Of a stretch of DNA of 48,479 nucleotides, positions 9,754 through 43,139 are shown piece after piece. Below the pieces are notes generated by a model. It saw only the letters and a program-made list of their open reading frames with translations. It made no database searches and was not told the origin of the DNA. The DNA comes from Nitrospinota bacterium (GTDB taxonomy: Bacteria > JADFOP01), in NCBI GenBank assembly GCA_022562795.1, contig JADFOP010000012.1, forward strand, positions 1-48,479. The letters are read 5' to 3'. Numbering within the stretch: position 1 is the stretch's first letter; each line of letters begins with the position of its first letter. The position numbers and the translations under genes are program-made.

Positions 9754-11157
<1,404 letters not shown>

Positions 11158-12949: not shown

Positions 12950-13013
12950 GCGGCGAGTAAGCGAGTGATGCGCGCTAAGTGCCGGGTGAATTGCCAAAAA
13001 CCCCGGCCTTCCG

Positions 13014-13111
<98 letters not shown>

Positions 13112-13120
13112 TACATTCAT

Positions 13121-14808: not shown

Positions 14809-15676
14809 GGCGACGGCGCGGTCCCGGCCCGCCTTGCCGCTCATCCTCGAGGACATAAAGCTCGCACACACCGTCTTCGCCATGCCCTTCGCCCTGATGG
14901 GGGCGCTCCTGGCGGCTGACGGGCTTCCGAGCCTGTGGGAGCTCACCTGGATCGTGGTCGCCGTGGTGGGCGCCCGAAGCGCCGCGATGGCGTTTAACCG
15001 GCTTGTTGACGCCCCTCTCGATGCCGCCCACGACCGTACCGAAGGCCGGCCCCTGCCGTCGGGCAAGGCCAGCCCACGCCACTACAAAGCCTTCATCGCC
15101 TGCTCTATAGCCCTGTTTGAGCTGGCCGCATGGATGCTCAACAGCCTCGCGTTCCTGCTCTCGCCGGTGGTGCTGGCCATCATCCTCGGCTACTCCTACA
15201 CCAAGCGCTTCACCCGTTGGAGCCACCTCTGGCTGGGGGTGGCGCTTGCCTGCGCCCCCATCGGCGCGTGGATCGCCATCCGCGGCGACATCGCCCTGGC
15301 CCCCCTCCTGCTGGGGGTGGCCGTGGCCTTCTGGGTCGCAGGGTTCGACACCTTATACGCCTGCCAGGACGTTGAGCATGACGCCGCTATGGGGCTTCAA
15401 AGCCTCCCTAGGGCCCTGGGGCTTAAGGGGGCTCTCCATGCCGCCCGGGCCTTCCACGTCCTTATGGTGGTGGCGCTGGTGGGGCTGCTGTTCGCGGCCG
15501 GCCTGGGCTGGATCTACCTTGCAGGGGTTCTGGTGGCAGTTGGGCTGCTGGTATACGAGCATATCCTTGTCCGCCCAGAGGACCTATCGAGGCTGCCCGT
15601 CGCGTTCCTCCACATCAACGGGTTGGTGAGCTTCACCCTCCTGGCGGCCACCGGTATAGAAAGGATTGTCCTATGA
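14777..15676 (+). CDS. mqnP: UbiA-family prenyltransferase (MqnP-like)
   Basis: Membrane enzyme that attaches the polyprenyl tail to an aromatic acid. 299 residues with about eight membrane helices. The two Asp-rich motifs for Mg-diphosphate are N74-x3-D78-x3-D82 (FNRLVDAPLDAAHD) and D191...D198...D202 (FDTLYACQDVEHD). In this operon the substrate is expected to be 1,4-dihydroxy-6-naphthoate. The frame overlaps the upstream gene by 32 bases; AAGGAG is only one base from the ATG at 14777, so TTG at 14783 or 14801 may be the true start. Confidence 0.88.
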   Translation: MALQRSSHLGEATARSRPALPLILEDIKLAHTVFAMPFALMGALLAADGLPSLWELTWIVVAVVGARSAAMAFNRLVDAPLDAAHDRTEGRPLPSGKASPRHYKAFIACSIALFELAAWMLNSLAFLLSPVVLAIILGYSYTKRFTRWSHLWLGVALACAPIGAWIAIRGDIALAPLLLGVAVAFWVAGFDTLYACQDVEHDAAMGLQSLPRALGLKGALHAARAFHVLMVVALVGLLFAAGLGWIYLAGVLVAVGLLVYEHILVRPEDLSRLPVAFLHINGLVSFTLLAATGIERIVL

Positions 15677-16773
15677 GTGAGCGAGCTTCCTGGCGCGATG
15701 AGGCCCTCGGGCCCATCGCCGAGAAAGTGGCCGCAGGCGAGCGGCTCTCGGCCGAAGACGGCCTCGTTCTGTTCGGCACACCCGACCTGTTGGGTCTCGG
15801 CGCGCTGGCGAACCAGGTAAGGGAGTCCCTCCACGGCAACGTTACACACTTCAATCAGAACCGCCATATCAACCCGACCAACATCTGCGAGGCCCACTGC
15901 CGCTTCTGCGCCTTCGGACGCGCCCCAGGCGCCGCCGGGGCCTACCAGTATTCCATCGAGGAGATTGTGGCCAAGGCCCGCGAGGCCGAAGCCGCCGGGG
16001 CCCGCGAGATCCACATCGTGGGCGGCCACCACCCGGACCTCTCCCTGGAGTGGTACTTAGAGATGCTTGAGGCCATGAAGCGGGCCTGCCCGGAGCTCCA
16101 CTTGAAAGCCTTTACGGCTATGGAGATAGACTACTTCACCGAGATAACGGGTCTCTCGGCGCGCGAGGTAATCGAGCGTCTCATGAATGCGGGGATGGAT
16201 TCCATGCCGGGCGGTGGGGCTGAGGTTTTCGCCCCCCGTGTGCGCAAGATAATTTGCCGGAACAAGGGCACCGGGGAACGCTGGATTGAGATCCACCGAA
16301 TCGCACACGGCCTTGGCATAAAAAGCAACTGCACGATGCTCTACGGCCACGTGGAGACGCACGAAGAGCGGGTCGACCACCTCCTTCAGCTTCGCGCGCT
16401 CCAGGACGAGACGGGCGGCTTCCAGGCGTTCGTGCCGCTGGTATTCCACCCCGAGAACACCGCTCTCAGGCGCATCACCAAGGCCAGCGGTGTGGAGGAC
16501 CTCCGGCTCATAGCCGTTTCCCGGCTGCTGCTCGACAACATTCCACACATCAAGGCCTACTGGATAATGCTGGGGATTAAAACGGCCCAAGTGGCTCTCG
16601 CCTTCGGGGCCGACGACCTGGACGGCACTGTGGTGGAAGAGAAGATTTTCCACGATGCGGGAGCCGACTCCCCCCAGGAGGTCCCCCTGGACGAGCTCGT
16701 GAGCCTCATCCGCGCCGCCGGGCGCGAGCCCGTCGAGCGCGACACCGTCTACAACGTCGTCCAACGCCACTAA
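15673..16773 (+). CDS. mqnE: Aminofutalosine synthase MqnE
   Basis: Radical SAM enzyme that joins the MqnA product to the SAM-derived adenosyl radical, giving aminofutalosine. 366 residues. The cluster cysteines are C72, C76 and C79 (ICEAHCRFCAF). Further family blocks: IHIVGGHHPDLSLEWY, MDSMPGGGAEVF, NCTMLYGHVETHEER and FVPLVFHPENT. The ATGA overlap with the mqnP stop shows coupling. With mqnA and mqnC next to it, the assignment among the MqnC/MqnE/CofH relatives is secure. Confidence 0.95.
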   Translation: MSERASWRDEALGPIAEKVAAGERLSAEDGLVLFGTPDLLGLGALANQVRESLHGNVTHFNQNRHINPTNICEAHCRFCAFGRAPGAAGAYQYSIEEIVAKAREAEAAGAREIHIVGGHHPDLSLEWYLEMLEAMKRACPELHLKAFTAMEIDYFTEITGLSAREVIERLMNAGMDSMPGGGAEVFAPRVRKIICRNKGTGERWIEIHRIAHGLGIKSNCTMLYGHVETHEERVDHLLQLRALQDETGGFQAFVPLVFHPENTALRRITKASGVEDLRLIAVSRLLLDNIPHIKAYWIMLGIKTAQVALAFGADDLDGTVVEEKIFHDAGADSPQEVPLDELVSLIRAAGREPVERDTVYNVVQRH

Positions 16774-16788
16774 AGAGGAACTCTCAGC

Positions 16789-17598
16789 GTGACGCAGCCG
16801 CGGCCCCGGCTCGGGATTCACTCGTTCTTGAACGCCATGCCCCTCGTGTGGCCCCTCATCAAGGGCCAGATGGAGCATCCTTTCGAGGTGGTGTTCGACA
16901 CACCGGCCCGGCTGGCCGACAGTCTCTCGGCCGGCCGCCTTGATGTCGCCATGGTCCCATCGGTGGAGGTCGCCCGTCACCCCGATTGGCGCGTTATGCG
17001 GGGGCCGGCGATCGCCTCCAATGGGGCCGTAGGCACCGTTGTCGTTGTCTCCCATAGGCCCCTCAAGGAAGTCCGCCGCCTGGCGGTGGACACCAAGAGC
17101 CGAACGAGCATCGTAATGATCGAAATTCTCTTTCGGAAGCGTTTCGGGCACCTGCCCGAGCTCGTACCCATGGCCGACGACCTGGAGGCGATGCTCGGCT
17201 CTTGCGAAGCTGCGCTCGTCATCGGCAACACGGCGTTCGGCGCGTCCCGCCTGGCCACACAGGGCTACCAGGTTGAAGACCTGGGCAGGCAGTGGTATGC
17301 TCTCACCCGCAAGCCCTTCGTCCACGCCGTCTACGCAGTGCGGCGAGGAGTAGAGTTAGGTCGAGCCGCCTCGCTCCTTGCCGAGGCCAAAGAGGCCGGG
17401 CTCGCACAGCTGGAAGCCATCGCCGAGAGCGAGGGCCCACCCATCGGCCTAGCCACTGACGAGGCCCTGGCCTATCTGCGAGATAAAATTATCTACGATC
17501 TGACCCCCAGGGAGGTCGCCGGCCTGGAGACCTTCTTGGCCCTCGGCGAGGAGCTAGGCCTGCTGGAGGGCCCGGTGGAGCTACGCTGGTATGAGTGA
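16789..17598 (+). CDS. mqnA: Chorismate dehydratase MqnA
   Basis: First step of the futalosine pathway: chorismate to 3-[(1-carboxyvinyl)oxy]benzoate. 269 residues, periplasmic-binding-protein-like fold. Typical pieces: RLGIHSFLNAMPLVWPL, GRLDVAMVPSVEVAR, VDTKSRTSIVMIEILF, VIGNTAFGAS and LGRQWYALTRKPFVHAVYAV. GTG start with GAGGA upstream. It overlaps mqnC by 8 bases. Confidence 0.94.
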   Translation: MTQPRPRLGIHSFLNAMPLVWPLIKGQMEHPFEVVFDTPARLADSLSAGRLDVAMVPSVEVARHPDWRVMRGPAIASNGAVGTVVVVSHRPLKEVRRLAVDTKSRTSIVMIEILFRKRFGHLPELVPMADDLEAMLGSCEAALVIGNTAFGASRLATQGYQVEDLGRQWYALTRKPFVHAVYAVRRGVELGRAASLLAEAKEAGLAQLEAIAESEGPPIGLATDEALAYLRDKIIYDLTPREVAGLETFLALGEELGLLEGPVELRWYE

Positions 17599-18673
17599 GG
17601 CAAACGTCAGGACGATCCTGGACAATGCCCTTGAGGGCCAACGGCTTACGAGCGACGATGCTCTGCGTCTTCTTGAGTCGGAGGAGTTGTTGGCGATAGG
17701 CCGCGCGGCCCAGGAGGTCGCCCTCCGCCGCCACCCCGAAGGCGCCGTCACCTACATAGTGGACCGTAACATCAACTACTCAAACGTCTGCAGCGCCGTT
17801 TGCACCTTCTGCGCCTTTTACCGCACACGCGGCCACGATGAAGCCTACGAACTGACCCGCCAGGAAATCTACGAAAAGATGGATGAGCTGGCGAGCCTCG
17901 GCGGCCGCCAGGTGCTCATGCAGGGTGGGCTTCACCCCGACCTGTCTCTTTCCTTCTACGAGGAGCTGCTGGCCGACCTCAAGGCCCGCTACCCCGAGGT
18001 CAACCTCCACACATTCAGCCCGCCGGAGATCATCAACTTCGTCGACCTCGAGGGCATCTCTCTGCGGGAGGTCATACGCCGCCTTAAGGCCGCGGGTCTG
18101 GGCTCCATTCCCGGCGGCGGGGCGGAGATTCTCGTTGAGGAGGTCCGCGACCGGATAAGCCGGGGCAAGGGCTCTGCGGCCCAGTGGCTAGAGGTCATGG
18201 AGACGGCCCACGAAGAGGGGCTTCGGACCACGGCCACCATGATGTTCGGCCACGTCGAGACGCTGGCCGACCGGGTTGAGCACCTCGAGGCCCTCCGTGA
18301 GCTGCAGGACCGAACCGGAGGCTTCACCGCATTCATCTGCTGGACCTTCCAGCCCGACAACACCCCCTTGGGAAAGAAACTCAACTACCGGCGGACCACC
18401 AGCCACGAGTACCTGAAGACCCAGGCGGTCGGGAGGCTCTTCCTCGATAACATCGAAAACGTCCAGACCTCCTGGGTCACCCAGGGCGAGAAAATCGGCC
18501 AGCTGTCTCTGCTCTTCGGGGCCAACGACTTCGGCGGCACCATGATGGAGGAAAACGTCGTCAGCGCCGCCGGAACCTACCATTACGTAAGCGAGGAGCG
18601 GATTCGGGAGCTGATTTCCGAGCTGGGCTTCACCCCCAAGCGGCGCACCACCTTCTACGAGCTTCTGGAGTGA
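17591..18673 (+). CDS. mqnC: Cyclic dehypoxanthinylfutalosine synthase MqnC
   Basis: Radical SAM cyclase that closes the spiro ring of dehypoxanthine futalosine. 360 residues. Cluster cysteines C67, C71 and C74 (NVCSAVCTFCAFYR). VLMQGGLHPDLSLSFYEEL, GLGSIPGGGAEILV, TTATMMFGHVETLADRV, CWTFQPDNTPLG and GGTMMEENVVSAAG are family hallmarks. The start overlaps mqnA. MqnB and MqnD, needed just before and after this step, are not in the window. Confidence 0.96.
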   Translation: MSEANVRTILDNALEGQRLTSDDALRLLESEELLAIGRAAQEVALRRHPEGAVTYIVDRNINYSNVCSAVCTFCAFYRTRGHDEAYELTRQEIYEKMDELASLGGRQVLMQGGLHPDLSLSFYEELLADLKARYPEVNLHTFSPPEIINFVDLEGISLREVIRRLKAAGLGSIPGGGAEILVEEVRDRISRGKGSAAQWLEVMETAHEEGLRTTATMMFGHVETLADRVEHLEALRELQDRTGGFTAFICWTFQPDNTPLGKKLNYRRTTSHEYLKTQAVGRLFLDNIENVQTSWVTQGEKIGQLSLLFGANDFGGTMMEENVVSAAGTYHYVSEERIRELISELGFTPKRRTTFYELLE

Positions 18674-30414: not shown

Positions 30415-31089
30415 ATGCCCGGAGGCTGTGTGTCGGGGCAGTTTGTCACACTTGAAGGTGTTGATGGAAGCGGCAAGAGCACGGTCTTGGGCAGATTGGG
30501 AGAGGCCCTGGCGGCCCAAGGCTACCCTGTGACGATGACCCGCGAGCCTGGCGGGACCGCCATAGGGGGGGGCATTCGGGCGGTTCTCCTGGATGTGGAA
30601 TCAGCCGGCATGAGCCCCATGTGCGAGGCGCTGCTCTACGCCGCCGACCGGGCCCAGCACGTAGCCGAGGTAATTCAGCCGGCCCTGGAGGCGGGCAAAC
30701 TCGTGCTGTGCGACCGGTTTACGGACTCAACGCTCGTCTACCAGGGCAGCGGTCGCGGTCTCGACCGGACCTGGCTGGAGCGGCTCTGCGACGTGGCAGC
30801 CGGCGGACTGGTTCCCGACATGACCCTACTGCTGGACCTCCCCGTAGAGGAAGGGCTTCAGCGCCTGCGCCGTCGGAGGACCTCCCAGGACGAGGGCCGC
30901 CATGAGGCCCGCCTCGATGAAGAGACTATCGCCTTCCACAGCCGTGTGCACGAAGGCTATAGAGCGCTTGCCGAGGCCAACCCGGAGCGGTTTACCATCG
31001 TTGACGCCTCCCTACCGGTGGATGATGTGGTGCGAGCCTGCCTCGAGGCCCTGGCCCCCGTGCTGGTCTCCGTAGGAGTCTCACCGTGA
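30415..31089 (+). CDS. tmk: Thymidylate kinase
   Basis: Phosphorylates dTMP to dTDP. 224 residues. P-loop EGVDGSGKST (residues 14-23), TREPGGTAIG, CDRFTDSTLVYQG and a lid with RRRRTSQDEGR. First gene of a coupled set: its stop overlaps the holB start by 4 bases (GTGA). The tmk-holB-ricT order is common in bacteria and links nucleotide supply with replication. Confidence 0.95.
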   Translation: MPGGCVSGQFVTLEGVDGSGKSTVLGRLGEALAAQGYPVTMTREPGGTAIGGGIRAVLLDVESAGMSPMCEALLYAADRAQHVAEVIQPALEAGKLVLCDRFTDSTLVYQGSGRGLDRTWLERLCDVAAGGLVPDMTLLLDLPVEEGLQRLRRRRTSQDEGRHEARLDEETIAFHSRVHEGYRALAEANPERFTIVDASLPVDDVVRACLEALAPVLVSVGVSP

Positions 31090-32090
31090 CGTTCCACAGT
31101 ATCGTCGGCCACGCCCGCGTCCTGGAGCGGCTCCGCCGCTCGCTGGCCGTTGAACGCGTGGCCCACGCTTACCTATTCGTCGGTCCCACCGGCGTCGGCA
31201 AAGCCACCGTGGCGCGGGCCTTCGCCGCGGCGCTGACATGCCCAGAGGAGCCGGGCGAGGGCTGCGGGACGTGTTCTAGCTGCCGAAGGCTGGCCGCCGG
31301 AGGCCACCCCGACGTCCACGTGGTGGAGCCCGATGGCCAAGAGGTGAAGATCGACCAAGTCCGGGCCCTTCAAGGCGCCCTCGCCTATCGGCCCGCGGAG
31401 GCGCAACGGGCCGTGGCCATAGTTCCGCAGGCAGAGCGGCTGACGCTGGAGGCGTCCAACGCCCTGCTAAAGACACTGGAGGAGCCACCCGGTGAGACGG
31501 TCGTGGTGCTGGTGACCCCGACCGCTTCCCTGCTGCCTTCGACTGTGGTATCTCGCTGCGAGCAGGTCAGCTTCACCCCGCTGCCTCCGGAGGAGCTGGC
31601 CTCCTTCTTGGTGGAGCGACGGGGGCTTACGGCCGAGGCCGCTAGGCTGACCGCAGCCCTGGCGGCCGGGCGCGTCGGCCAGGCGCTGGAGGCCGAGGTG
31701 GGCGAGCTCAAGGCCATGCGGGAGCGGGCGTGGCAGTTTTTGGCCGCAGCCGCCGACGGCCCTGGGTCGGTGCTGGCCTGGAGCCGAAAAAGCGTCGAGG
31801 AGATGCGCCGTGACCGCTCCAGCCCCAAGGCAGAAGGCCTGGAGTTGAGCTCGGCTCTCCTCAGCCTGGCCCGCGACATTATATTGACCCAGGCCGGCCA
31901 GCTCGACCGACTGATCCACGCCGATCTGGCAGACCGGTACTCGGCGCTTCCTGCGGCCCGTCGGCCGGCGGCAGCCCAAGCCATGTTCGAAGCCGTCCAG
32001 GTCGCCCGAAGCCGCCTGAAAAGGAACCTTAATCCCCAGCTGGTCTACGAGACGATGGGGCTTGCCATCGCCGAGGCCAACCGGGGTTAA
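31086..32090 (+). CDS. holB: DNA polymerase III delta-prime subunit
   Basis: Clamp-loader subunit. 334 residues. The P-loop region GPTGVGKAT is at 33-41, the four zinc cysteines at C52, C60, C63 and C66 (CPEEPGEGCGTCSSC), followed by KIDQVRALQGALAYRP, NALLKTLEEPPGETV and the VSRCEQV motif equivalent to the SRC arginine finger. The C-terminal third is the less conserved helical collar. GTG start in overlap with tmk. Confidence 0.93.
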   Translation: MTFHSIVGHARVLERLRRSLAVERVAHAYLFVGPTGVGKATVARAFAAALTCPEEPGEGCGTCSSCRRLAAGGHPDVHVVEPDGQEVKIDQVRALQGALAYRPAEAQRAVAIVPQAERLTLEASNALLKTLEEPPGETVVVLVTPTASLLPSTVVSRCEQVSFTPLPPEELASFLVERRGLTAEAARLTAALAAGRVGQALEAEVGELKAMRERAWQFLAAAADGPGSVLAWSRKSVEEMRRDRSSPKAEGLELSSALLSLARDIILTQAGQLDRLIHADLADRYSALPAARRPAAAQAMFEAVQVARSRLKRNLNPQLVYETMGLAIAEANRG

Positions 32091-32115
32091 CCATAGACTA
32101 AGAAGGGAGAGATCG

Positions 32116-32943
32116 ATGATTAACCTCGTCAGCATTCAGCTTTCCGACCACGGGAGGCTCTATCAATGCGAGGACCCCAACCTCTGCCTATCCATCGCAG
32201 ACCCTTGCATCGTTGAGAAGCAGTTCGCCGAGATCGCCTTCGGCCACATGGCGAGCAACTACATGCGCATACCCCGAGAGACATTCAAGAAGGATCCGTG
32301 GAAGGTCCTCCGGAAGGCGACCGATAAGGACCTTAATATGCAAGAGCGCAACGAGCGGATGGAAAAAGAGGCGATCTCCTCCTGTAAGGAGCTCGTTTCC
32401 ACCCACAACCTCTCCATGAAGCTGGAACAGGTCTCCTTCGCCTTTGATGCAAAGAAGGCGACTTTTTACTACACCGCCGAGGAATGGATCGATTTCCGCC
32501 AGCTAGTGCGCGACCTTGCCAAAGAGTTCAAGGTCCGAATCGAGATGCGCCAGATAGGGGCTAGGGACTTAGCCTCGCTGATGGGAGGATGCGATACCTG
32601 CGGCGAACAGTTATGCTGCACCCGCAATCTAAAGGAGCTAAAGCCGGTCCCCATTCGTGCGGCCAAAGACCAGAACTTCACAGGCAACCCGGACAAGCTC
32701 ACCGGCGTGTGCGGGCGCCTAAAATGCTGTCTTCTCTACGAGCACCCCAACTACATCGCCGTCAAGGGCTCCATGCCCAGCCCTGGGAAAACTGTGCGCC
32801 TACCCGAGGGGAAAGGCCGGGTCGCCAAGATAGACATCGTCCGAGAAGAGGTTCTCGTGATCCTCGAAGATGGGAGCCAGGTAGCCGTTCGCGGCGACCG
32901 CGCCACCGACCTCACTTTCCCCAACGGGCCCACCGACGGGTAG
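32116..32943 (+). CDS. ricT: PSP1-domain protein RicT
   Basis: 275 residues, the RicT/YaaT family. Two cysteine groups are present: C159, C162, C167 and C168 (GGCDTCGEQLCC), and C199, C204 and C205 (GVCGRLKCCLLYE), which in characterised Ric complexes bind a [4Fe-4S] cluster. The PSP1 core (FYYTAEEWIDFRQLVRDLA) precedes them. In Firmicutes RicT with RicA and RicF controls RNase Y processing; the role outside them is not established. AGGGAG stands 6 bases before the ATG. holB lies immediately upstream, the same neighbourhood as in Bacillus. Confidence 0.92.
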   Translation: MINLVSIQLSDHGRLYQCEDPNLCLSIADPCIVEKQFAEIAFGHMASNYMRIPRETFKKDPWKVLRKATDKDLNMQERNERMEKEAISSCKELVSTHNLSMKLEQVSFAFDAKKATFYYTAEEWIDFRQLVRDLAKEFKVRIEMRQIGARDLASLMGGCDTCGEQLCCTRNLKELKPVPIRAAKDQNFTGNPDKLTGVCGRLKCCLLYEHPNYIAVKGSMPSPGKTVRLPEGKGRVAKIDIVREEVLVILEDGSQVAVRGDRATDLTFPNGPTDG

Positions 32944-32952
32944 GACCGCGCC

Positions 32953-34914
32953 ATGGGTGGCCCACCGGCGGAAAAGACCATCTACATCACGACCCCAATT
33001 TACTACGTCAACGATGTGCCCCACCTCGGCCACGCCTACACCACCCTGGCCGCCGACGTGCTGGCCCGCCACCACCGCCTCCGCGGCCGTGAGGTCTTCT
33101 TCCTGACAGGAACCGACGAGCATGGCCAAAAGGTGGAGCGCTCGGCCGCCGAGCAGGGGCTAAAGCCCATCGAGCTCGCCGACCGCACGGTGGAGCGCTT
33201 CAAAGCGGTCTGGGAGGCGCTGCACATTTCCAACGACGACTTCATCCGGACCACCGAGCCGCGCCACCACCGGGCCGTTGAAGAGATCTTCCGCCGCATC
33301 AACGAGGCGGGCGACATCTACATGGGTGAGTACGAGGGGCTATACTGTGTGCCGTGCGAGACGTTCTGGACGGACCTCCAGATGGGAGAGGAGGGTGGTT
33401 GCCCATCCTGCGGGCGACCGGTCGAAAGGCTTCGGGAGAAGTCCTACTTCTTCCGGATGAGCAGCTACGAGAAGCGGCTGCTTGAACACATCGAGACCCA
33501 CCCGGAGTTCATCCAGCCCGAATCTCGCCGCAACGAGGTCCTATCCTTCGTGCGCCAGGGCCTGAGAGACCTCTCCATCAGCCGGACCACCTTCGATTGG
33601 GGCGTCCCTGTGCCGACCGACCCCTCTCACGTCCTCTACGTCTGGTTCGACGCCCTCACAAATTATCTCACCGCTCCCGGTTTCGGAGACGATCCAGAGC
33701 GCTTTGAGCGTATCTGGCCTGCCGACATCCACCTCATCGGAAAGGACATCCTCCGCTTCCACGCAGTTTACTGGCCGACCTTCCTCATGGCGGCGGGCCT
33801 TCCCCTGCCCCGCACCGTTTACGGCCACGGCTGGTGGACCGTCGAAGGCCGGAAGATGTCCAAGAGCCTTAGGAACGTGGTCGATCCCCTCTGGCTCATC
33901 GAGACCTACGGGGTGGACGCCGTTCGCTACTTCCTTCTTAGGGAAGTCCCCTTCGGCGCCGACGGCGACTTCTCCCACGAGGCCTTCATAGGGAGGCTCA
34001 ACGCGGAGCTGGCCAACGACCTGGGCAACCTCCTGTCGCGAACCGTCGCGATGATCCAGAAGTACTGCGACGGCATCGTGCCCGAGCCCTCAGGCGAAAC
34101 CGGGCTGGAGGAGGCCCTACGGGAGCGCGCGGCCGAGGTGATGGCCGCCCAGGACGGCTTCATGGCGGAGTGCGCCTTCCAGAAGGCCCTGATCAACATC
34201 TTCGGGCTCGTTGGGGCTGTCAACAAGTACATCGACGAGACCGCCCCCTTCAAGCTCGCAAAACGCGAGGCCGACCGGCCTCGGCTCCGGACCGTCTTAT
34301 ACACTCTTGCCGAGGTATTAAGGCTCTTGGGCCTCCTTATCGAGCCTTACATGCCGACGACGGCCATGAAGATCGGCTGCCAGCTCGGAATCCCGGCCCT
34401 TGAAGCGGGCCACCCCTTTGCCGAGACCGCCCGCTGGGGCGGCACCGCGGCGGGCCAGACCACATTCGCGGGACCGAAGCTATTCCCACGGATCGAAGAG
34501 GAGCACGCCTTGGCCATCCAACGGGAGGTTGTCCGCCTTGCCGAAGCTGAAGAGGCCCCGCCCGAGGAGGAGAGGATACCAGTGGAAGAGATTACCATCG
34601 AAGAGTTCCAACGGATTACGCTGCGAACGGCCAGAATCATCTCGGCCGAGCCCGTCCCCAAAGCGAAGAAGCTCCTCAAACTCATAGTGGAGGTCGGCGG
34701 AGGCGAGGAGCGACAGCTCGTGGCCGGGATCGCCCAGGACTACACCCCCGAGGCCCTGGTGGGCAAATCGGTCGTCGTGCTCACCAACCTCAAGCCCGCC
34801 CGCATCATGGGGGTCGAGAGCCAGGGCATGGTGCTCGCCGGAGAGTCGCCGGAAGGCAAAGTGGTGCTGGCCACCTTCGACGAACCGCTGGAGCCGGGCT
34901 GCGTGGTCAAGTAG
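32953..34914 (+). CDS. metG: Methionyl-tRNA synthetase with C-terminal tRNA-binding domain
   Basis: 653 residues. Class I signatures H24-L-G-H27 (VPHLGHAYTT) and KMSKS at 301-305. Two CxxC pairs (C132/C135 and C150/C153) form the zinc knuckle. The anticodon-binding helical domain spans about 365-500. The last 105 residues (RTARIISAEPVPKAKKLLKL to the end) are an OB-fold tRNA-binding and dimerisation domain, ending cleanly at PGCVVK. It starts 10 bases after ricT. Complete and unremarkable. Confidence 0.97.
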   Translation: MGGPPAEKTIYITTPIYYVNDVPHLGHAYTTLAADVLARHHRLRGREVFFLTGTDEHGQKVERSAAEQGLKPIELADRTVERFKAVWEALHISNDDFIRTTEPRHHRAVEEIFRRINEAGDIYMGEYEGLYCVPCETFWTDLQMGEEGGCPSCGRPVERLREKSYFFRMSSYEKRLLEHIETHPEFIQPESRRNEVLSFVRQGLRDLSISRTTFDWGVPVPTDPSHVLYVWFDALTNYLTAPGFGDDPERFERIWPADIHLIGKDILRFHAVYWPTFLMAAGLPLPRTVYGHGWWTVEGRKMSKSLRNVVDPLWLIETYGVDAVRYFLLREVPFGADGDFSHEAFIGRLNAELANDLGNLLSRTVAMIQKYCDGIVPEPSGETGLEEALRERAAEVMAAQDGFMAECAFQKALINIFGLVGAVNKYIDETAPFKLAKREADRPRLRTVLYTLAEVLRLLGLLIEPYMPTTAMKIGCQLGIPALEAGHPFAETARWGGTAAGQTTFAGPKLFPRIEEEHALAIQREVVRLAEAEEAPPEEERIPVEEITIEEFQRITLRTARIISAEPVPKAKKLLKLIVEVGGGEERQLVAGIAQDYTPEALVGKSVVVLTNLKPARIMGVESQGMVLAGESPEGKVVLATFDEPLEPGCVVK

Positions 34915-34969: not shown

Positions 34970-36349
34970 ATGCTCATAGACACCCACGCCCACCTGGAGA
35001 TGGAAGAGTTCGACGAGGACCGCGACGAGGTCCTCCTCCGAGCCCGCAAGGCCGGAGTCTCGGCCATAATCACTATCGCTTCGACCTTTGAGAGCAACGA
35101 ACAGGCCAAGACCGTAGCGGAGGCCTACCCGGGCGTCTACCACACCGTGGGCGTCCACCCCCACGACGCCAAGCACCTAACCCCAGAGCGCCTAAAGGAG
35201 CTCTGCCTCCGGGCCCTGGGGGAGCGGGTCGTGGCCTGGGGGGAGATCGGTCTCGACTACTTCCGCGACCGCTCGCCCCGCGAGGCCCAGCGGGCGGCCT
35301 TCCGCGAGCAGCTAGACTGCGCTGCGCGACTGGGGCTTCCCGTGGTCATCCACAACCGCGACGCCCACGACGACACCCTCTCGGTGCTTGCCGAGCAGGG
35401 CCCCCGCGAATCGACCGGGGTCTTCCACTGCTTCAGCGGAGACTCCTCTTACGCCAACCGATGCCTGGAGCTTGGCTTTTATCTCTCGGTAGGAGGTCCC
35501 ATAACCTATCCGAAGAACGATAAATATCGCGAGCTTGTGGGAACGCTCCCCACCGACCGGTTGCTTGTCGAGACCGACTCTCCCTTCTTAACGCCCCAGG
35601 CCCACCGGGGCCGCCGCAACGAGCCCGCCTACGTGACCTTCGTTGCCGAGGAAGTGGCCGAGGCAACGGGGCTTACTGTGGAGGAGGTGGGTCGGATCAC
35701 CACGAAAAACGTCTGGCGCCTCTTCGGAATAGGCCTCCGGGATGCTCAGCCCAGGATAGTACGCCCCCTTCGGGACAGCCTATATGTCAACCTCACCCAT
35801 CGCTCCACCAACGCGACCACCTTCTGCAGCCGGACCTTCGACCCCGGCCTCAGGGGCCACGACCTGCAGTCGGAGCGCGATCCCACCGTGGGAGAGGTGC
35901 TCCAGGCCATAGAGCCTGGGCTTTCCGGAGCCCGAGAGGTGGTCTTGTGCGGCTGGGGCGAGCCGACCCTCAGGCTCGAAGAGCTCAAGGAGATTGCCCG
36001 CCGGCTGAAGGAGAGCGGGTGCCGGGTGCGCCTCACCACCAACGGCCATGGCTCGATCATCCACGGGCGCGACATCGCTGAGGAGCTCTCCGGCCTGGTG
36101 GACGCGTGCTCCGTAAGCCTCATCGCCCAGGACGCAGATACCTACGAGGCCCTATGCCGGCCCACCCACGGAAAGGTGGCCTACGAAGCGGTCAAGGGCT
36201 TTATCGCGCTGGCCAAGGCTGGCGGGATGGAGGTAGAGGCCACGGCGGTGGACGTCCCGTACTGGGTGGATTTGGCCGCCTGCCGGATAGTAGCCGAGGA
36301 GGAGCTCGGAGTTCCCTTTCGGGTGCGCCGCCCCAGCGAGATGGGCTGA
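34970..36349 (+). CDS. tatD: TatD DNase fused to a radical-SAM-like domain with lost cluster cysteines
   Basis: 459 residues in two parts. Residues 1-257 are a complete TatD metal-dependent DNase: DTHAHLEMEEFDEDR, TVGVHPHDAK, GEIGLDYFRD, HNRDAHDDT, FHCFSGD and ETDSPFLTP. Residues about 265-459 follow the TatD-linked radical SAM family (TIGR04038-type): SLYVNLTHR, VVLCGWGEPTLRLEELKEIA, RLTTNGHGSIIHG and DACSVSLIAQDADTYEAL. The cluster motif should be C-x3-C-x2-C, but here it is S279-x3-T283-x2-C286 (RSTNATTFC), so the 4Fe-4S cluster cannot form in the normal way. The codons are tcc, acc and tgc, so no single-base error explains both losses. No ribosome site is visible at the ATG. Confidence 0.88.
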   Translation: MLIDTHAHLEMEEFDEDRDEVLLRARKAGVSAIITIASTFESNEQAKTVAEAYPGVYHTVGVHPHDAKHLTPERLKELCLRALGERVVAWGEIGLDYFRDRSPREAQRAAFREQLDCAARLGLPVVIHNRDAHDDTLSVLAEQGPRESTGVFHCFSGDSSYANRCLELGFYLSVGGPITYPKNDKYRELVGTLPTDRLLVETDSPFLTPQAHRGRRNEPAYVTFVAEEVAEATGLTVEEVGRITTKNVWRLFGIGLRDAQPRIVRPLRDSLYVNLTHRSTNATTFCSRTFDPGLRGHDLQSERDPTVGEVLQAIEPGLSGAREVVLCGWGEPTLRLEELKEIARRLKESGCRVRLTTNGHGSIIHGRDIAEELSGLVDACSVSLIAQDADTYEALCRPTHGKVAYEAVKGFIALAKAGGMEVEATAVDVPYWVDLAACRIVAEEELGVPFRVRRPSEMG

Positions 36350-36516: not shown

Positions 36517-36858
36517 TCAGCCAAGGGCCGCCCCAATCACCTCCAGCACTTTTTCCTCTTCAAAGGGCTTGACTATGAAGTTTTTTGCCCCATTAAGGAG
36601 GGCTTCGGTTACTTTATCTTTCGTACCGGCCGAGCTGACCATTACTACCACGGCGGCCGGATCTATGGCCTTAATCTGCTTGAGGGCCTCGATGCCGTCC
36701 ATCTTGGGCATGACGATGTCGAGAGTCACGCAATCGGGTAGAAGCTCCTGGTATTTCTGTACCGCTTCTTCCCCGTCGATGGCTTGACCCACCACCTCGT
36801 AGTTTTCCTGCTCGACAATCCGTTTAATGTGTTCATTGAGAAACTTTGAATCGGCTGG
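36517..36858 (-). pseudogene. CheY-like response regulator lacking its N-terminus
   Basis: Receiver similarity starts at about 36858 (ADSKFLNEHIKRIVEQENYE) and continues VVGQAIDGEEAVQKY, CVTLDIVMPKMDG (phospho-acceptor Asp), VVMVSSAGTKDKV and NFIVKPFEEEKV. The first beta strand and one of the two pocket acids (normally V-x-D-D-S) are missing, and no start codon lies between an in-frame TAA upstream and the GTG at 36795, which would drop a further 20 residues. The 5' end overlaps the FapA-like fragment in another frame, consistent with a deletion junction. Phosphorylation would be impaired. Confidence 0.7.
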
Positions 36859-37234
36859 CCAGCGACAGGGCCGCCTCTGGAGTTAGGCTGACCCCTTGTT
36901 CCTCCAAGGCCTTTAGTATTCGAGACAACAATGCCTAGGGGGCTTCCTCATTATAGTCGTACAGGATCAGATGAGCTGCCATCTCGTCTAGGCTCACCTC
37001 CACCCTGAAGGGCTCAAGGGCCCCCTGGTGGATTAAGAGCGGCTTGCCTCTCTAGCGCTTGTAGGCCAGCTTGACCGCTCCATAATCGATGGAGGGAAGG
37101 CCGAGTCCCTTCAAATATTCTACAAGTTCCGGGTAAGCGATATCCGCCTCCCCCTCCATGGTAGGCTGTAGGGTGAGTGTCAGGCCCTCGGGGCTTTGAG
37201 CCAGTTTGACTGTAGAGTTCGATTTATCAGTCAA
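36833..37234 (-). pseudogene. FapA-like (DUF342) fragment with two in-frame amber codons
   Basis: A TTG at 37234 with AGGAGG 8 bases upstream opens a frame that reads to TAG at 37054-37052, then GKPLLIHQGALEPFRVEVSL and DEMAAHLILYDYNEEAP to a second TAG at 36937-36935, then ALLSRILKALEEQGVSLTPE and on to TGA at 36835-36833. No other stop occurs in this frame over 133 codons. The V-x-V-S-x-D-x-M-x-A-x-L pattern followed by I-x-x-x-L-x-x-x-G-V recalls the N-terminal domain of FapA/DUF342 proteins, which occur in flagellar and chemotaxis operons. The large beta-helix part is missing. It overlaps the end of the CheA-like gene by 8 bases. Confidence 0.5.
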
Positions 37235-38462
37235 GGTCCACACCTCCTGCGGCAACCGGCTCCAGTTGCTGGGCCTCCTTCATACTGGTCATGACATTGT
37301 TGAAAATGGGTCGGTCATCAATGGGCAAGGAAACCTTCCTGAAATTTATGACGTGGTCCCGAATCTGGCAGGCTACGCGGTCTAGGTCCCCTAGAGCGTT
37401 GAGAAGCTCATTATTTCCATTCGGCAGGAACTCCTTGCTCAACTCGGCGATGCGAGTGTGGACATTGACGCACTCTCCCATCAGGTTTAAGATCTGGTCG
37501 AGCTCCGCGGCCTCTAACCTAACGGAAGAGGCTGGCTGAGGCCGACGTTCCCTGGTCTGCTTCTCCAAGGCCTCAGATAGCTCATCGGGCGTTATCAAGC
37601 CCTCCCCGAGGAGAATCTGTCCCAGTTGCCTTTGTTGCCCGAGCGCCCGTTCCACCTCCATGATGGTGATCTTCCCATCATCCACTAAAATCTCGCCCAG
37701 GCGTCTTGAGCCTCTCATCTGCGCCTCAGCGTAAGTTCCCAGAGACCGCACGCCGATTGGGTGCCCGTTACACAGGGGCTTGAGTCCCCTCTCGAGGACC
37801 GCTGGGCCTTGATCGGAAGTAAACTCGAAAATCCAGGCCAAATGAAATTGCGACGGGTCAAGCTCCTCCAAGGTTGGGACCCGGGAGGTGTCGGTCACTA
37901 CGCCATCCACCTCCCCCAAGCGAGCCAGATCGAGGAAAACCTTTAAGGGCTCTACGCCCTCGTCCAAAATGGTGGGTTTAAACCTCAGCTCAACCTCGAA
38001 GGCCTCTGGGACGTTGAGAGATGAGGATTGTTGCCCCTGGAGAGCGGCTGATGCCGCCGTGCTGGTCGCCCTGGAGCTTAAAGCCCTTAGCGATGCAGCG
38101 ACTTCCTCCAGGCTCGTCGGCAAACTCTCGTCGGCAAGGTGCTCAGGGGAGCTAATGGGGAGTTTCAGCTCATCCACGGCTCTCAGGAGAATCGAGATTA
38201 GCTCCCTCTCCACCGCCAGCTCACCGGAGCGGACGCGGTTTAGGAGATCTTCAACAATCTGGGTGAATTGACGGATGACCTCCAAGCCCACGATGCCCGC
38301 TCCGCCCTTTATGGTATGAGCTGCCCTAAAGATTTTTTCCACCAGAGCGCTGTCGGTGGGGTCGATATGCAAAGCCAGCAGGTCGGCCTCCATTCCGGTC
38401 AACAACTCGGTGGCCTCTTCCACAAAAATCTGAACAAGGTCGTCTCTCTTGGAGTTGCTCAT
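37227..38462 (-). CDS. CheA-like protein: Hpt and dimerisation domains, no kinase domain
   Basis: 411 residues. The Hpt (P1) domain at about 1-105 carries the phospho-His in AAHTIKGGAGIVGL. A P2-like middle (EVELRFKPTILDEGVEPLKV, FHLAWIFEFTSDQG) and two repeats (RLGEILVDDGKITIMEVERA, then QLGQILLGEGLITPDELSEA) follow. The P3 dimerisation helices (AAELDQILNLMGECVNVHTR) are at about 325-375. Then the chain ends: the HATPase (P4) and CheW-like (P5) domains, normally 350 residues more, are absent. It cannot phosphorylate itself and would need another kinase. The start overlaps the STAS gene by 4 bases (ATGA), and the end overlaps the next ribosome site, so the short form may be established rather than a fresh truncation. 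Confidence 0.8.
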   Translation of the reverse strand: MSNSKRDDLVQIFVEEATELLTGMEADLLALHIDPTDSALVEKIFRAAHTIKGGAGIVGLEVIRQFTQIVEDLLNRVRSGELAVERELISILLRAVDELKLPISSPEHLADESLPTSLEEVAASLRALSSRATSTAASAALQGQQSSSLNVPEAFEVELRFKPTILDEGVEPLKVFLDLARLGEVDGVVTDTSRVPTLEELDPSQFHLAWIFEFTSDQGPAVLERGLKPLCNGHPIGVRSLGTYAEAQMRGSRRLGEILVDDGKITIMEVERALGQQRQLGQILLGEGLITPDELSEALEKQTRERRPQPASSVRLEAAELDQILNLMGECVNVHTRIAELSKEFLPNGNNELLNALGDLDRVACQIRDHVINFRKVSLPIDDRPIFNNVMTSMKEAQQLEPVAAGGVDLD

Positions 38463-38740
38463 AGACCGAAATCCCTATCTAGCTTGGTCAAGGCCAAAAC
38501 GTTAGATACATAGGGGCTTGGGTCAACGATACGAATCTCCTGGCCCCGACCCAAGACCGACTTCTTTGCCGCCACGAGGACCTGAAGGGCTGCACCGTCC
38601 AAATCCGTAACCTCGGAGGCGTCCAGCATTACCACCTCGTCTCCGTTATTCAGGGCATTAAGAATACGCTCTTGCAAGTTTGCCGCGCCGGCCCCTGTCT
38701 CTTCCCTCTTTAGTCTTACAATCGCAGAGGTTTTGGACAT
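38459..38740 (-). CDS. STAS-domain protein
   Basis: 93 residues, one STAS domain (anti-sigma-factor antagonist fold): LQERILNALNNGDEVVMLDA, then SEVTDLDGAALQVLVAAKKS and IRIVDPSPYVSNVLALTKLD. The serine that is phosphorylated in SpoIIAA (D-S-S-G) is replaced by Gly-Ala here (LDGAAL), so phospho-control is unlikely. Such STAS proteins occur at the head of che operons. The ATG has an AGGTAGGA site. It overlaps the CheA-like start. Confidence 0.82.
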   Translation of the reverse strand: MSKTSAIVRLKREETGAGAANLQERILNALNNGDEVVMLDASEVTDLDGAALQVLVAAKKSVLGRGQEIRIVDPSPYVSNVLALTKLDRDFGL

Positions 38741-38811
38741 GGGTCTTCCTACCTTGTGGTACTTATCGAATATGTGAGCGAAGGGTTAAAGGTCTCATTT
38801 TAGGGCCGATT

Positions 38812-39408
38812 TCATGAGGGAGCATGCTCCTGGAATTTTTGGCTTCGCAATTTCTGACAAGACGTCTGGAAGGCGTAGTGGATAATCCGCTCCCGGTCGG
38901 CCTCGCGGATATGGGTAAATCCGACAGCCACCTCCCAGTCGTTTGCTCTCCTGTCGATGCGAAGGATGCGACCTGCGCACTGTACGTTGGAAACCGAAGG
39001 CCCCGGAAGAATGAATTTAAGCTCCAACAGTGATGAGACCGAGGGAGCCTTGCCGCAGGAGAGCTTCAGGCCAGACCCACTTATGTCGATGAGCCTGGCT
39101 TTGAGACCGTTCCACTCCCCGCGGGGGGATGAGGCGAGGGTCTCTAGCACGAGGTCCAGCTTAAATAGGATCTCTCGGTAGATAGGCATGAGGCGCTCGG
39201 CCTCCCCAACAAAGGGGTCCGGATCCGAGGCGGGCCAAAAGTGGAAATCCGGAGACTGCGACACAGCGAAATCTGCCCGGCATCGGTTGCCCAATTGCTC
39301 GTGTTCCTCCTCGGTGATTAACCGATAAGAGAGAGGGAAGGAATCCTCGACCCTGAAATAATCTCGACGGTCGCGGGCTTCTCTGTCATTTGAGTTTTTC
39401 CCTTTAAT
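38812..39408 (-). CDS. PilZ-domain protein, ATT start or 5' frameshift
   Basis: The PilZ domain, a c-di-GMP receptor fold, shows as GLKARLIDISGSGLKLSC, LLELKFILPG, RILRIDRRANDWEVAVGFTH and ADRERIIHYAFQ. The conserved N-terminal block of this family (RRDYFRVEDSFPLSYRLITE) is in the same frame but upstream of the first ordinary start, a TTG at 39294. The open frame reaches back to a TGA just before 39408, where an ATT lies 7 bases after AAGGAG. So either translation begins at ATT (198 residues), or a base has been lost after the ATG at 39389, which in another frame begins MTEKP. The N-terminal RxxxR-like arginines (RDRRDYF) are included only in the long form. Confidence 0.7.
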   Translation of the reverse strand: MKGKNSNDREARDRRDYFRVEDSFPLSYRLITEEEHEQLGNRCRADFAVSQSPDFHFWPASDPDPFVGEAERLMPIYREILFKLDLVLETLASSPRGEWNGLKARLIDISGSGLKLSCGKAPSVSSLLELKFILPGPSVSNVQCAGRILRIDRRANDWEVAVGFTHIREADRERIIHYAFQTSCQKLRSQKFQEHAPS

Positions 39409-39581
39409 GTCGCTTCTCCTTCACAAACTAGTGGTTTGCTGAATAAGAAGATAAGCAAAATGGATGCCGTTAGGGACTAGCGGGCTCAGGGTAGACTACA
39501 TACCCATTTTTCAATATATTGAGGCTCCAACCACAGGCTAGAGCCCTCTTAACTTATCGGCTCCTTGACGGAGTGCCAAAC

Positions 39582-41171
39582 CTATGACGCCAAGGCCCGG
39601 CGTATGTCCTTCTGGGGATTTTGCCTCACGACGCTTTCAAAGGCTTCAACTACTAGTGGGTCGAATTCCTTTCCGGCGTTGAAGCGAAGGTGGGCCATGA
39701 CCTCCTCCGGAGGGAATGCGGGCCTGTAGCTCCGATCCGACGTCATCGCCTCGTAGACATCCGCTACGGCCGTAATGCGAGCAAATAAGGAGGTCTCCTC
39801 TCCAGTTAGACCATCGGGGTAGCCGCTTCCATCTATTCGCTCGTGGTGGTGGCGGATGACGGTCATTTCCATGGGAAAGAGGTTTAAAGGTTCCAAGAGC
39901 TTCTCACCAATGATGGTGTGAGTCTTAATGACCTCGTATTCCTCGTGGCTGAGGGGGCCCTTCTTCTGTAAAATGTCATCGCGGATGGCCACTTTGCCTA
40001 GGTCGTGGAAATAACACGAGAAGTTGAGCGCGTCCACTTCCTCCTGGGAACAGCCCATCACCAGGGCTATGGAGGAAGCGAACAAGCAAACCCCCTTGGA
40101 ATGGTCTTTAATGTAAGGGTCTTTATACTCCACTAGGTCCACCATACTTCGAAAGCTATTGACCAGGTTTTCGTAAATCTTCTCGTACAAAAGAGCGTTT
40201 TCCAAGCAAAGGGAGGCCTCCTCGGACAGGGCCACATAAGGGCCCATCTCCATTGCAGTCATTGTCCGTGGCCGGTGGAAGTGGAACACGTGTAAGGCCC
40301 CAAAAACGTGGCCCTTTATCCGCATTGGAACGGTTGTCAAATCCTTGGTAGAAAGTGGCCTCTTATGTTCCACCAAAGACGTTAAGTGGGAATTGAGCAT
40401 CGCCCTCACCTTGGGCGGGATGTGGGTTTCTCCTTCGGTATTCTTGGTCCCAGGCGAGGCGTGAACCTGCGGGCCCATACCCGCGAACCCCTTCGCCTCC
40501 TTGATGGTCCATGCCCCCGATTCGGAGTTCAAGACCGAGACCACCACTTGGCCTGTCGGACTCATTTCAGAAGCCGCTGATGCCAGATAAGCGTACAGGT
40601 CGTCGCTGTCAGCGTTTGACCTGTAGGTCTCCCGCAAGGCCGCAAGGTCCGTAAGTCGGTAGCCAGTCGAGAGGTGTGTCTCGTAGCCCTCAGCCTGCTC
40701 CGATAGGGTCTCCAGCATTATATCCATCCCGTAATTGGAGACCCTCTTGAGAATAATCTTCTCCACCAGAGAGCCTACCTCGTCCAACTTTAAAGGCTTT
40801 GATAAAAAGTCGGACGCCCCCAATCGGAGGGCATCAACGGCATACTCCACCGAAGAGTGAGCGGTGACGATGACTACGGGCAGGCTCGGGGCGACCCGCT
40901 TTATCTCCGAGACGAGCTCTAGGCCGCTCATGCCGGGCATTTGGATGTCGACAAAAGCCAGGTCGAACCCGTGGGGCTCCATTAGCTCTAAGGCTTCATC
41001 TGCAGAGCCAGCCCCCAAAACTTCATAGCCCATCTTTCCCAGAAACCTTTTGAAAATACTGATGAACTCATGTTCATCATCCACCACCAGAATTCTTCCA
41101 ATAATGGGTGGTGGAGAAATTCCCCCATATTCGGAAATTCCCGGAAAATTGTCGTTTCCAGAACCCCTCAT
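39582..41171 (-). CDS. Response regulator REC-GAF-HD-GYP (c-di-GMP phosphodiesterase type)
   Basis: 529 residues. REC at about 25-140 with the acidic pair D31/D32 (VVDDEHE) and phospho-acceptor D75 (AFVDIQMPGMSG); a GAF-like domain at about 180-335; HD-GYP at about 350-515 with FHDLGKVAI and HHERIDGSGYPDGLTGEE. HD-GYP enzymes hydrolyse c-di-GMP, and all metal and GYP residues seen are intact. The first 22 residues (MRGSGNDNFPGISEYGG) are not part of REC and their DNA resembles the short A/T-C/G repeats elsewhere in the window. The ATG overlaps the small upstream gene by 4 bases. A phosphodiesterase beside PilZ and flagellar genes suggests motility control. Confidence 0.92.
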   Translation of the reverse strand: MRGSGNDNFPGISEYGGISPPPIIGRILVVDDEHEFISIFKRFLGKMGYEVLGAGSADEALELMEPHGFDLAFVDIQMPGMSGLELVSEIKRVAPSLPVVIVTAHSSVEYAVDALRLGASDFLSKPLKLDEVGSLVEKIILKRVSNYGMDIMLETLSEQAEGYETHLSTGYRLTDLAALRETYRSNADSDDLYAYLASAASEMSPTGQVVVSVLNSESGAWTIKEAKGFAGMGPQVHASPGTKNTEGETHIPPKVRAMLNSHLTSLVEHKRPLSTKDLTTVPMRIKGHVFGALHVFHFHRPRTMTAMEMGPYVALSEEASLCLENALLYEKIYENLVNSFRSMVDLVEYKDPYIKDHSKGVCLFASSIALVMGCSQEEVDALNFSCYFHDLGKVAIRDDILQKKGPLSHEEYEVIKTHTIIGEKLLEPLNLFPMEMTVIRHHHERIDGSGYPDGLTGEETSLFARITAVADVYEAMTSDRSYRPAFPPEEVMAHLRFNAGKEFDPLVVEAFESVVRQNPQKDIRRALAS

Positions 41172-41386
41172 TGCCCTGCCCCATCATTGCCGCTTGTCAG
41201 CTCCTGGACAATTTGTCCAGCCACCGCCTTGGCAACAGCCCTTTTTCTCCCGTCCTCCGAGATGGTCACAACATCCGCTGGCAATTCCAAAGCCTTGGAT
41301 TTGTTCTTATTAGCGATTCCTACTGTGCTTAAGCGCTCGCTCCTAATTCGCAGCAAAGCCGCAACATTTTCTAAATGAGTAACCAT
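41168..41386 (-). CDS. Small protein of unknown function in the flagellar block
   Basis: 72 residues. The C-terminal half (ADVVTISEDGRKRAVAKAVA) has the V-x-I-S-x-x-G-R style seen in several small flagellar-cluster proteins, and an anti-sigma-28 (FlgM) relationship came to mind, but the FlgM helices are not convincing. ATG with AAAGG upstream. Its stop overlaps the HD-GYP start (ATGA), and it lies 15 bases after the flaG-like gene, so all three are probably co-transcribed. Confidence 0.6.
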   Translation of the reverse strand: MVTHLENVAALLRIRSERLSTVGIANKNKSKALELPADVVTISEDGRKRAVAKAVAGQIVQELTSGNDGAGQ

Positions 41387-41401
41387 CGATCAAACCTTTT
41401 T

Positions 41402-41905
41402 CTAACCATATAGAACCAGGCGGCGTTGATCCCAGTTCCCGGAACGAGATTCTTTCCTCCGGCCCACGCCGCCAAGTACGTTGGGCTTGGACTCTGCTCT
41501 GGCTGTTACGTCGAGCCCCGGTCTAAATCCCCCATATTCCTTGGCAGCCTGGTCCTGCTTGTTGAGAATCCCCATGTCCTCGAGGAGCTCCGCTTTGCGC
41601 CTGCTGGTAGCCTCTCGGAGCTCTTCAACAAGCTCCATTTGTCCCTTAAGCTCCTCGCAGCATCGGCGGATGGCCTCCCCGGTCTCGTCGTCAATGACGA
41701 GGAAAGCAGGTCGGCCGGTATCCTCATCCACAAAGACCTTTATTCGCGGCCTCCGCTGGACAGGTTCCACCCGCGATGGACCCGCCTCACTTCCCCCCCG
41801 TAAAGGACGAGCCTCTCCTGACCCAGACTTGGAGACCTTGGGCTCAGCAGGCTGCCTCTTCTCAACTGGGTCTTCCGGGTTATGAGCCAAGGCCTTAACG
41901 TCCAC
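41402..41905 (-). CDS. FlaG-like protein with extended C-terminus
   Basis: 167 residues. Residues about 53-87 match the FlaG core (IKVFVDEDTGRPAFLVIDDE then TGEAIRRCCEEL), with a charged, disordered-looking N-terminus as usual. FlaG influences filament length. After the core there is a 75-residue extension (helical, then basic) that FlaG proteins lack, and the usual I-P-x-E-x-L end of the core is replaced by a CCEEL segment. It lies 112 bases downstream of flagellin on the same strand. Confidence 0.65.
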   Translation of the reverse strand: MDVKALAHNPEDPVEKRQPAEPKVSKSGSGEARPLRGGSEAGPSRVEPVQRRPRIKVFVDEDTGRPAFLVIDDETGEAIRRCCEELKGQMELVEELREATSRRKAELLEDMGILNKQDQAAKEYGGFRPGLDVTARAESKPNVLGGVGRRKESRSGNWDQRRLVLYG

Positions 41906-42017
41906 TTTCCAAGCCTCCCTAATTGCTCCCTCCGATTATTGGCGCCCCGGGAGACCCCCCACCGGACCTCCCGAGGCCACCAAAATGGCCGGCCCATGGG
42001 ACCGACCCGAGTTACTT

Positions 42018-43139
42018 TTACTGCAGCAGTGCCAATGCCGACTGAGACGAGATATTGGCCTGCGCAAGGATGGAGACACCAGCCTGGACCAGGATCTGAT
42101 TCCTCGTGAACTCCGTGGTCTCCTCGGCGATGTCGGCATCCCTAATGGTGGACTCAACCGAAGCCACGTTCTCGACGCTACTTGCGAGGTTGGCCGCGGC
42201 GAAGTCCATCCGGTTCTTGAACGCGCCGATATTGCCCAACGTCGTGTTGACGGTGTCAATGGCGGCGTCAATCGTGGTGATGTAGCTGTTGGCGTTAGAT
42301 TTGCTGGTCACGTTGCCCGTGACGCTGAGGCCGGTCGTCGTCAGGTCGCCCAGCGAAAGGGAGATGTTCTGGTTGGCGAAGGCGGCGACCTGGAAGTCCT
42401 GAGCTGAGGCAACCCCAGTCACGATGGTGTTGGCCGCCATAGAGCCACCAAGATTGGTCGAGTCGTAAGCGGCGTTGATGGTGATGGACAGCCCCAGATC
42501 GGTGAAGTTGAGCTTTTTCGTCTCGCCTTCGGCATCGATGTCGCCGGCGTTAAACGACACCACCTGAGTGGTGTTGGCATCCTGAATGGTAACCGACGTT
42601 GCGGTGGCAGCGGAGAGGGTGAAGGTCGTGCTGGCCGCAGCGCCGGTGATTTCGATCGACTGAATGCCGACCGCGGCAGTGATGCTGGCCCCCTGGCTGG
42701 AGAGGCTCACGCCGAAGGAGCCGTCCACCAGACCCACTGCGTTGAATGTGGTGTCGTCGGCGATTCGGTCGATTTCGGACTCAAGCGCAGAGCGCTCGGA
42801 GTCCAGAGCCGTTCGTGCAGCGGAGTCGTTCTGGTCGGAGGCGGCCGACACCGCTAGCTCACGGAGCCGGACCAAGATATTGGAAATCTCGGTCGCGGCA
42901 CCCTCAGCAACTTGACCCAGGGACGCGCCCTGGGCCGTGTTGAGGCTCGCCACCCTCACCCCGCCCAGCTGAGCGCGCAGCTTGTTGACGATGGAGAGGC
43001 CCGCGGCATCGTCTGCAGCGCTATTAATGCGAAGACCGCTGGAAAGTCTCTTCAGAGACCCTTCCAATCCCCTGCTGGAGATGCCCAAGTTCCTCTGGGC
43101 GGCTAACGCCACCGCATTAGTGTTTACTCGTAGAGCCAT
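42018..43139 (-). CDS. fliC: Flagellin
   Basis: 373 residues, complete. The conserved N-terminal D0/D1 (VNTNAVALAAQRNLGISSRG, then KRLSSGLRINSAADDAAGLS) and C-terminal D1/D0 (FKNRMDFAAANLASSVENV, DADIAEETTEFTRNQIL, SQSALALLQ) frame a T/S/A-rich variable middle. Short for a flagellin but normal for the domain set. GAGGAAG precedes the ATG. A sigma-28 promoter lies about 160 bases upstream. No second flagellin copy is in the window. Confidence 0.96.
   Translation of the reverse strand: MALRVNTNAVALAAQRNLGISSRGLEGSLKRLSSGLRINSAADDAAGLSIVNKLRAQLGGVRVASLNTAQGASLGQVAEGAATEISNILVRLRELAVSAASDQNDSAARTALDSERSALESEIDRIADDTTFNAVGLVDGSFGVSLSSQGASITAAVGIQSIEITGAAASTTFTLSAATATSVTIQDANTTQVVSFNAGDIDAEGETKKLNFTDLGLSITINAAYDSTNLGGSMAANTIVTGVASAQDFQVAAFANQNISLSLGDLTTTGLSVTGNVTSKSNANSYITTIDAAIDTVNTTLGNIGAFKNRMDFAAANLASSVENVASVESTIRDADIAEETTEFTRNQILVQAGVSILAQANISSQSALALLQ

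Follow-up and report, generated by a model that had tools for sequence, protein, structure and literature searches.

Solved radical-SAM barrels, such as those of MoaA, PFL-activating enzyme and NifB, hold a [4Fe-4S] cluster by three cysteines. In the family TIGR04038 (tatD_link_rSAM), such a domain is joined to a TatD hydrolase, with TatD preceding the radical-SAM domain in every one of 75 full-length homologues chosen for alignment; some other members are stand-alone frames of ~200 aa. In the literature searched, TIGR04038 has no reported function, and an open-literature search did not turn up any account of radical-SAM pseudoenzymes that are linked to TatD or lack the cluster. The TatD deoxyribonucleases 6l25, 2gzx, 1j6o and 4p5u are stand-alone proteins that lack a radical-SAM domain. 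A link between TatD and proofreading comes solely from the reported activities of some TatD-family members.

The window analyzed here, a 48,479-nucleotide contig of a Nitrospinota bacterium (genome G000), encodes a member of this family with a degenerate cluster motif. Three genomes were compared within the phylum, namely the window genome, a member of the same genus (G001, the genus-mate) and an outgroup from the same class (G002, the nearest outgroup). Across 386 genomes, 92 distinct TIGR04038 members were retrieved and aligned. The features of the locus are as follows.

30415 to 34914, plus strand: tmk, holB, ricT and metG, upstream of the fusion gene, in an order identical to that of the outgroup
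34970 to 36349, plus strand: TatD-TIGR04038 radical-SAM fusion ORF, 459 aa in an uninterrupted single frame
34970 to 35734, plus strand: TatD hydrolase domain (approximately residues 1 to 255), with H6, H8, E92, H128, H153 and D203 all intact
35759 to 36331, plus strand: degenerate TIGR04038 radical-SAM domain (profile match)
35804 to 35827, plus strand: degenerate cluster motif S279-TNA-T283-TF-C286 (family form, CxxxCxxC)
35948 to 35971, plus strand: GE motif C327-G-W-G-E-P-T-L334, retained (C327 is Gly in the genus-mate)
36035 to 36052, plus strand: TTNGHG block (residues 356 to 361), retained
36110 to 36124, plus strand: S381-V-S383-L-I385, aligned with the MoaA VSLDA block, with Ser383 kept and the family-conserved Asn385 lost (Val in the genus-mate)

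The tatD gene closes a tmk-holB-ricT-metG-tatD run that is arranged alike in the outgroup. On its 3′ side (36517 to 43139, minus strand) lie genes for a CheY-like receiver, a CheA-like protein of 411 aa that combines an HPt part with an MshE-type c-di-GMP-binding motif, a NosR-family-like response regulator, and flagellin. Within the 459-aa ORF, residues 3 to 253 match the TatD profile PF01026 (275.9 bits) and residues 264 to 454 match TIGR04038 (190.9 bits, against a cutoff of 129.7), so the protein passes the family threshold. It shares with the family the fusion architecture and the GE and TNG blocks. The domain is also homologous to TIGR04100 (rSAM_pair_X), but its score of 143.5 bits is below the cutoff of 262 for that family, to which it does not belong by score. 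An AlphaFold2 (AF2) model of the whole protein, built on a 70-sequence alignment, had a pLDDT of 94.1 and a pTM of 0.84; because the alignment consists mostly of intact homologues, this confidence speaks for the family fold and less for the mutated copy, whose own folding it leaves unproven. The N-terminal part of the model superimposed on the TatD deoxyribonuclease 6l25 at 1.1 Å (TM score, 0.97 of target; Foldseek E value, 3e-28), and its metal-ligand residues are intact. The C-terminal barrel matched PFL-activating enzyme (3c8f) and NifB (6y1x) in the PDB, and the radical-SAM domain profile matched MoaA (1tv7; E value, 4e-6) and PFL-activating enzyme, with the family VSLNA block aligned with VSLDA of MoaA. 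Unlike these enzymes, which share the barrel and carry three cluster cysteines, the window domain lacks two.

An earlier note on this DNA had described the motif as S-x3-T-x2-C in an open frame with preserved GWGEPTL and TTNGHG blocks. This description was accurate: the codons are TCC for S279 (35804), ACC for T283 (35816) and TGC for C286 (35825), and GWGEPTL occupies residues 328 to 334. Its view that the domain is otherwise preserved holds for these two blocks but not for Y265R, L301S, F326L and N385I, which depart from the family at positions that are 90 to 99% conserved and at which the genus-mate departs too. Thus, Y265, C279, C283, L301, F326 and N385 are lost in both copies, and Y272, C286, L299 and C327 are lost in the genus-mate alone. 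The residues kept in both are N274, T276, F285, GxGEP, R354, T357, G359, S383, F411 and R453. The CxxxCxxC motif of functional radical-SAM proteins is therefore represented by one of three cysteines in the window copy and by none in the genus-mate. In the TatD part, none of 32 columns conserved at 95% shows a departure.

Among the 92 distinct members, 90 have CxxxCxxC, including that of the nearest outgroup (CTNECIFC), and the only exceptions are the window genome and its genus-mate. The genus-mate motif reads STNETTFT; the Ser and Thr that stand for the first two cysteines are encoded as in the window, by TCC and ACC, and the third cysteine is also gone. Both genomes are fragmented (84 and ~780 contigs), which would suit an artefact of sequencing, assembly or binning. 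However, the genus-mate is an independent assembly that shares 78% protein identity and a syntenic region of ~25 genes with the window, and sequencing error is excluded because the same two codons occur in it. In addition, reaching the two codons from TGC requires three nucleotide changes, and the frame is undisturbed. An artefact is thus extremely improbable. In the simplest history, Cys279 and Cys283 were probably lost in the genus ancestor, before its two known species split. A profile search of the window genome found no second TIGR04038 match, and compensation by another copy was rejected on this ground.

The third cysteine is not the only further loss in the genus-mate. Its GE motif has changed from CGWGEP to GGYGEP, and a TAG at codon 423 and a TAA at codon 431 cut off the last 37 residues. 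The frame past both stops can still be aligned to the same terminal stop, and the in-frame stops look recent. These losses bear on the possibility that the domain still works, with C286, C327 or cysteines of a partner as substitute cluster ligands, or with nonradical SAM chemistry. The SAM-contact elements GxGEP, TNG and Ser383 are present in both species, and C286 and C327 are retained in the window copy, as this explanation would have it, but the genus-mate lacks both cysteines and Asn385 is gone from both species. A working domain is accordingly very unlikely.

Because the loss of Cys279 and Cys283 is placed in the genus ancestor, all divergence between the window and genus-mate copies would postdate it and can be used to examine selection on the altered domain. 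The NG86 omega was 0.38 for the radical-SAM domain (bootstrap confidence interval, 0.26 to 0.57), i.e., purifying selection after the loss of catalytic residues, as would be expected of a pseudoenzyme, and 0.19 for TatD (0.13 to 0.27). The radical-SAM value was the higher in 99.5% of bootstraps, and maximum likelihood gave the same ranking (0.15 versus 0.06). The amino acid identity of the domain is 73%, versus 31% (maximum, 38%) in neutral simulations at the smallest distance tried, which slightly exceeds the observed four-fold-site distance. The radical-SAM domain is therefore under purifying selection after the loss, approximately half as strongly as TatD. The earlier note had also argued from the open frame, an argument that proved weak, since in a sequence this rich in GC a single lineage simulated under neutrality escapes stop codons in 27 to 37% of runs. 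Compared with the other syntenic genes, leaving out an ORF at 28397 that is antisense to a longer gene, the radical-SAM domain had the highest omega, the next being 0.293.

The relaxation is not evenly spread over the domain. Of 35 family-conserved columns (≥85%), 7 (20%) differ between the window and genus-mate copies; for 13 pairs of intact copies the figure is 11 of 462 (2.4%; binomial P, ~2e-5, with pairs that are not fully independent). At the other radical-SAM columns the window and genus-mate copies differ at 27%, which is inside the intact-pair range of 15 to 47%, and in TatD both the conserved and the ordinary columns behave normally. The ratio of radical-SAM to TatD divergence, at 1.43, is larger than in any other of the 24 pairs compared, yet it is near that of intact pairs (up to 1.37) and is weak on its own. 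Constraint has gone specifically from the catalytic-core columns, which is the pattern expected when the fold is kept and the chemistry is not.

These results can also be read as slow pseudogenisation, in which the genus ancestor no longer needed the radical-SAM activity and the domain is the decaying tail of a needed TatD. Its well-kept look would then reflect the harm done by misfolded tails and the short time elapsed. An omega twice that of TatD, the turnover of conserved core columns, and the two in-frame stops of the genus-mate with its loss of the third cysteine, Y272, L299 and C327 all agree with such decay. However, 73% identity has been kept after the loss where neutrality predicts ~31%, the ordinary columns evolve as in intact domains, and neither copy has a frameshift, with the window domain open throughout to the usual end of the family. 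Slow pseudogenisation is thus a somewhat unlikely explanation. The proposal of the earlier note, that two substitutions in an intact domain point to a pseudoenzyme and not to random decay, is upheld by the fixed, genus-shared loss and the purifying selection that followed, and is weakened by the erosion in the genus-mate and the turnover of core columns. Its suggestion that the domain is kept for binding is one reading beside the slow erosion of a dispensable domain, given an omega twice that of TatD.

The best explanation, with a probability of roughly 0.6, is that the protein carries a cluster-less pseudoenzyme domain on a TatD-type hydrolase, most likely with a noncatalytic job and under weakening constraint. 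The fused radical-SAM domain would have become a pseudoenzyme in the genus ancestor, where Ser and Thr replaced two of the cluster cysteines and several core residues also changed, all ahead of the species split. Judging from radical-SAM chemistry, the domain would be unable to hold a [4Fe-4S] cluster, cleave SAM or make a 5′-deoxyadenosyl radical. The barrel would still be produced, with its shape maintained by selection, and would most likely serve the TatD half without radical chemistry, either by stabilizing TatD or by holding its substrate or a SAM-like ligand. Constraint may now be weakening, with the genus-mate losing the end of the domain. The stops and further conserved losses of the genus-mate, a radical-SAM omega above those of the neighbors, and the occurrence of the degenerate form in two genomes only all count against this explanation.

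The window genome has 23 other radical-SAM hits, 21 of which have CxxxCxxC. The two that do not are as follows.

G000:C11:26971-27656 (genus-mate, G001:C630): MnmL/YtqA homologue, matching TIGR01212 with 157.8 bits over a 228-aa stretch (cutoff, 180)
G000:C20:13551-14624 (genus-mate, G001:C768): NirJ-like protein with the GGEP motif (GGEPLLHP)

The first cluster cysteine of the MnmL/YtqA homologue is present in 28 of 28 relatives elsewhere, including the nearest outgroup, and is replaced by Pro in the window genome and by Leu in the genus-mate; the YFQAYTNTYAP and GTRPDC blocks are degraded as well. The NirJ-like protein has lost all three CxxxCxxC cysteines in both species, and its nearest relatives retain them. 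Both frames are open in both species, with omegas of 0.34 and 0.25, respectively. Three of ~24 radical-SAM proteins in the genus are thus without cluster ligands and yet selected. These two proteins resemble the TatD-linked domain in their open frames, in the loss of cluster cysteines in both species and in being under selection, but they belong to other families, lie at unlinked loci and have no TatD. A lineage-wide, cluster-free reuse of radical-SAM folds, in which all three would have become nonredox scaffold or ligand-binding proteins, is a doubtful extension.

General iron-sulfur loss was rejected as a cause, since the cysteines of RicT and ThiC are kept in the window genome along with those of the 21 other radical-SAM hits. 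The ThiC gene (9754 to 11157), with CxxCxxxxC kept, and the ThiG gene (11870 to 12649) lie on the minus strand of the window downstream of a TPP riboswitch (12999 to 13117, minus strand; 65.3 bits). At 15673 to 18673 (plus strand), there are two radical-SAM genes with intact cysteines and MqnC/MqnE-like motifs, from which they are presumed to belong to the futalosine menaquinone pathway.

A haem-copper oxidase subunit I is encoded in the window genome (G000:C30:22542-23873). Haem-copper oxidase was not found in the intact outgroup, and the genus-mate genome (85% complete) has only a fragment. Across the 386 genomes, TIGR04038 and COX1 are weakly anti-associated, with COX1 in 31 of 92 carriers (Fisher P = 0.054). 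Oxygen use alone is insufficient as a cause because this association is weak and all cysteines are retained in the remaining 30 carriers with COX1. None of the three phylum genomes, intact and degenerate carriers alike, has class III NrdD, which is therefore uninformative on this question.

Radical-SAM folds that remain selected after cluster loss would reveal uses of the barrel besides radical chemistry. In this family, intact relatives, the half-lost window copy and the fully cysteine-less copy of the genus-mate stand side by side. A genus that lives without the radical activity yet keeps the protein would make it possible to distinguish a TatD-supporting role from the chemistry of the domain. 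In addition, the same kind of loss in three of ~24 radical-SAM proteins of one genus points to a testable cause at the level of the lineage.
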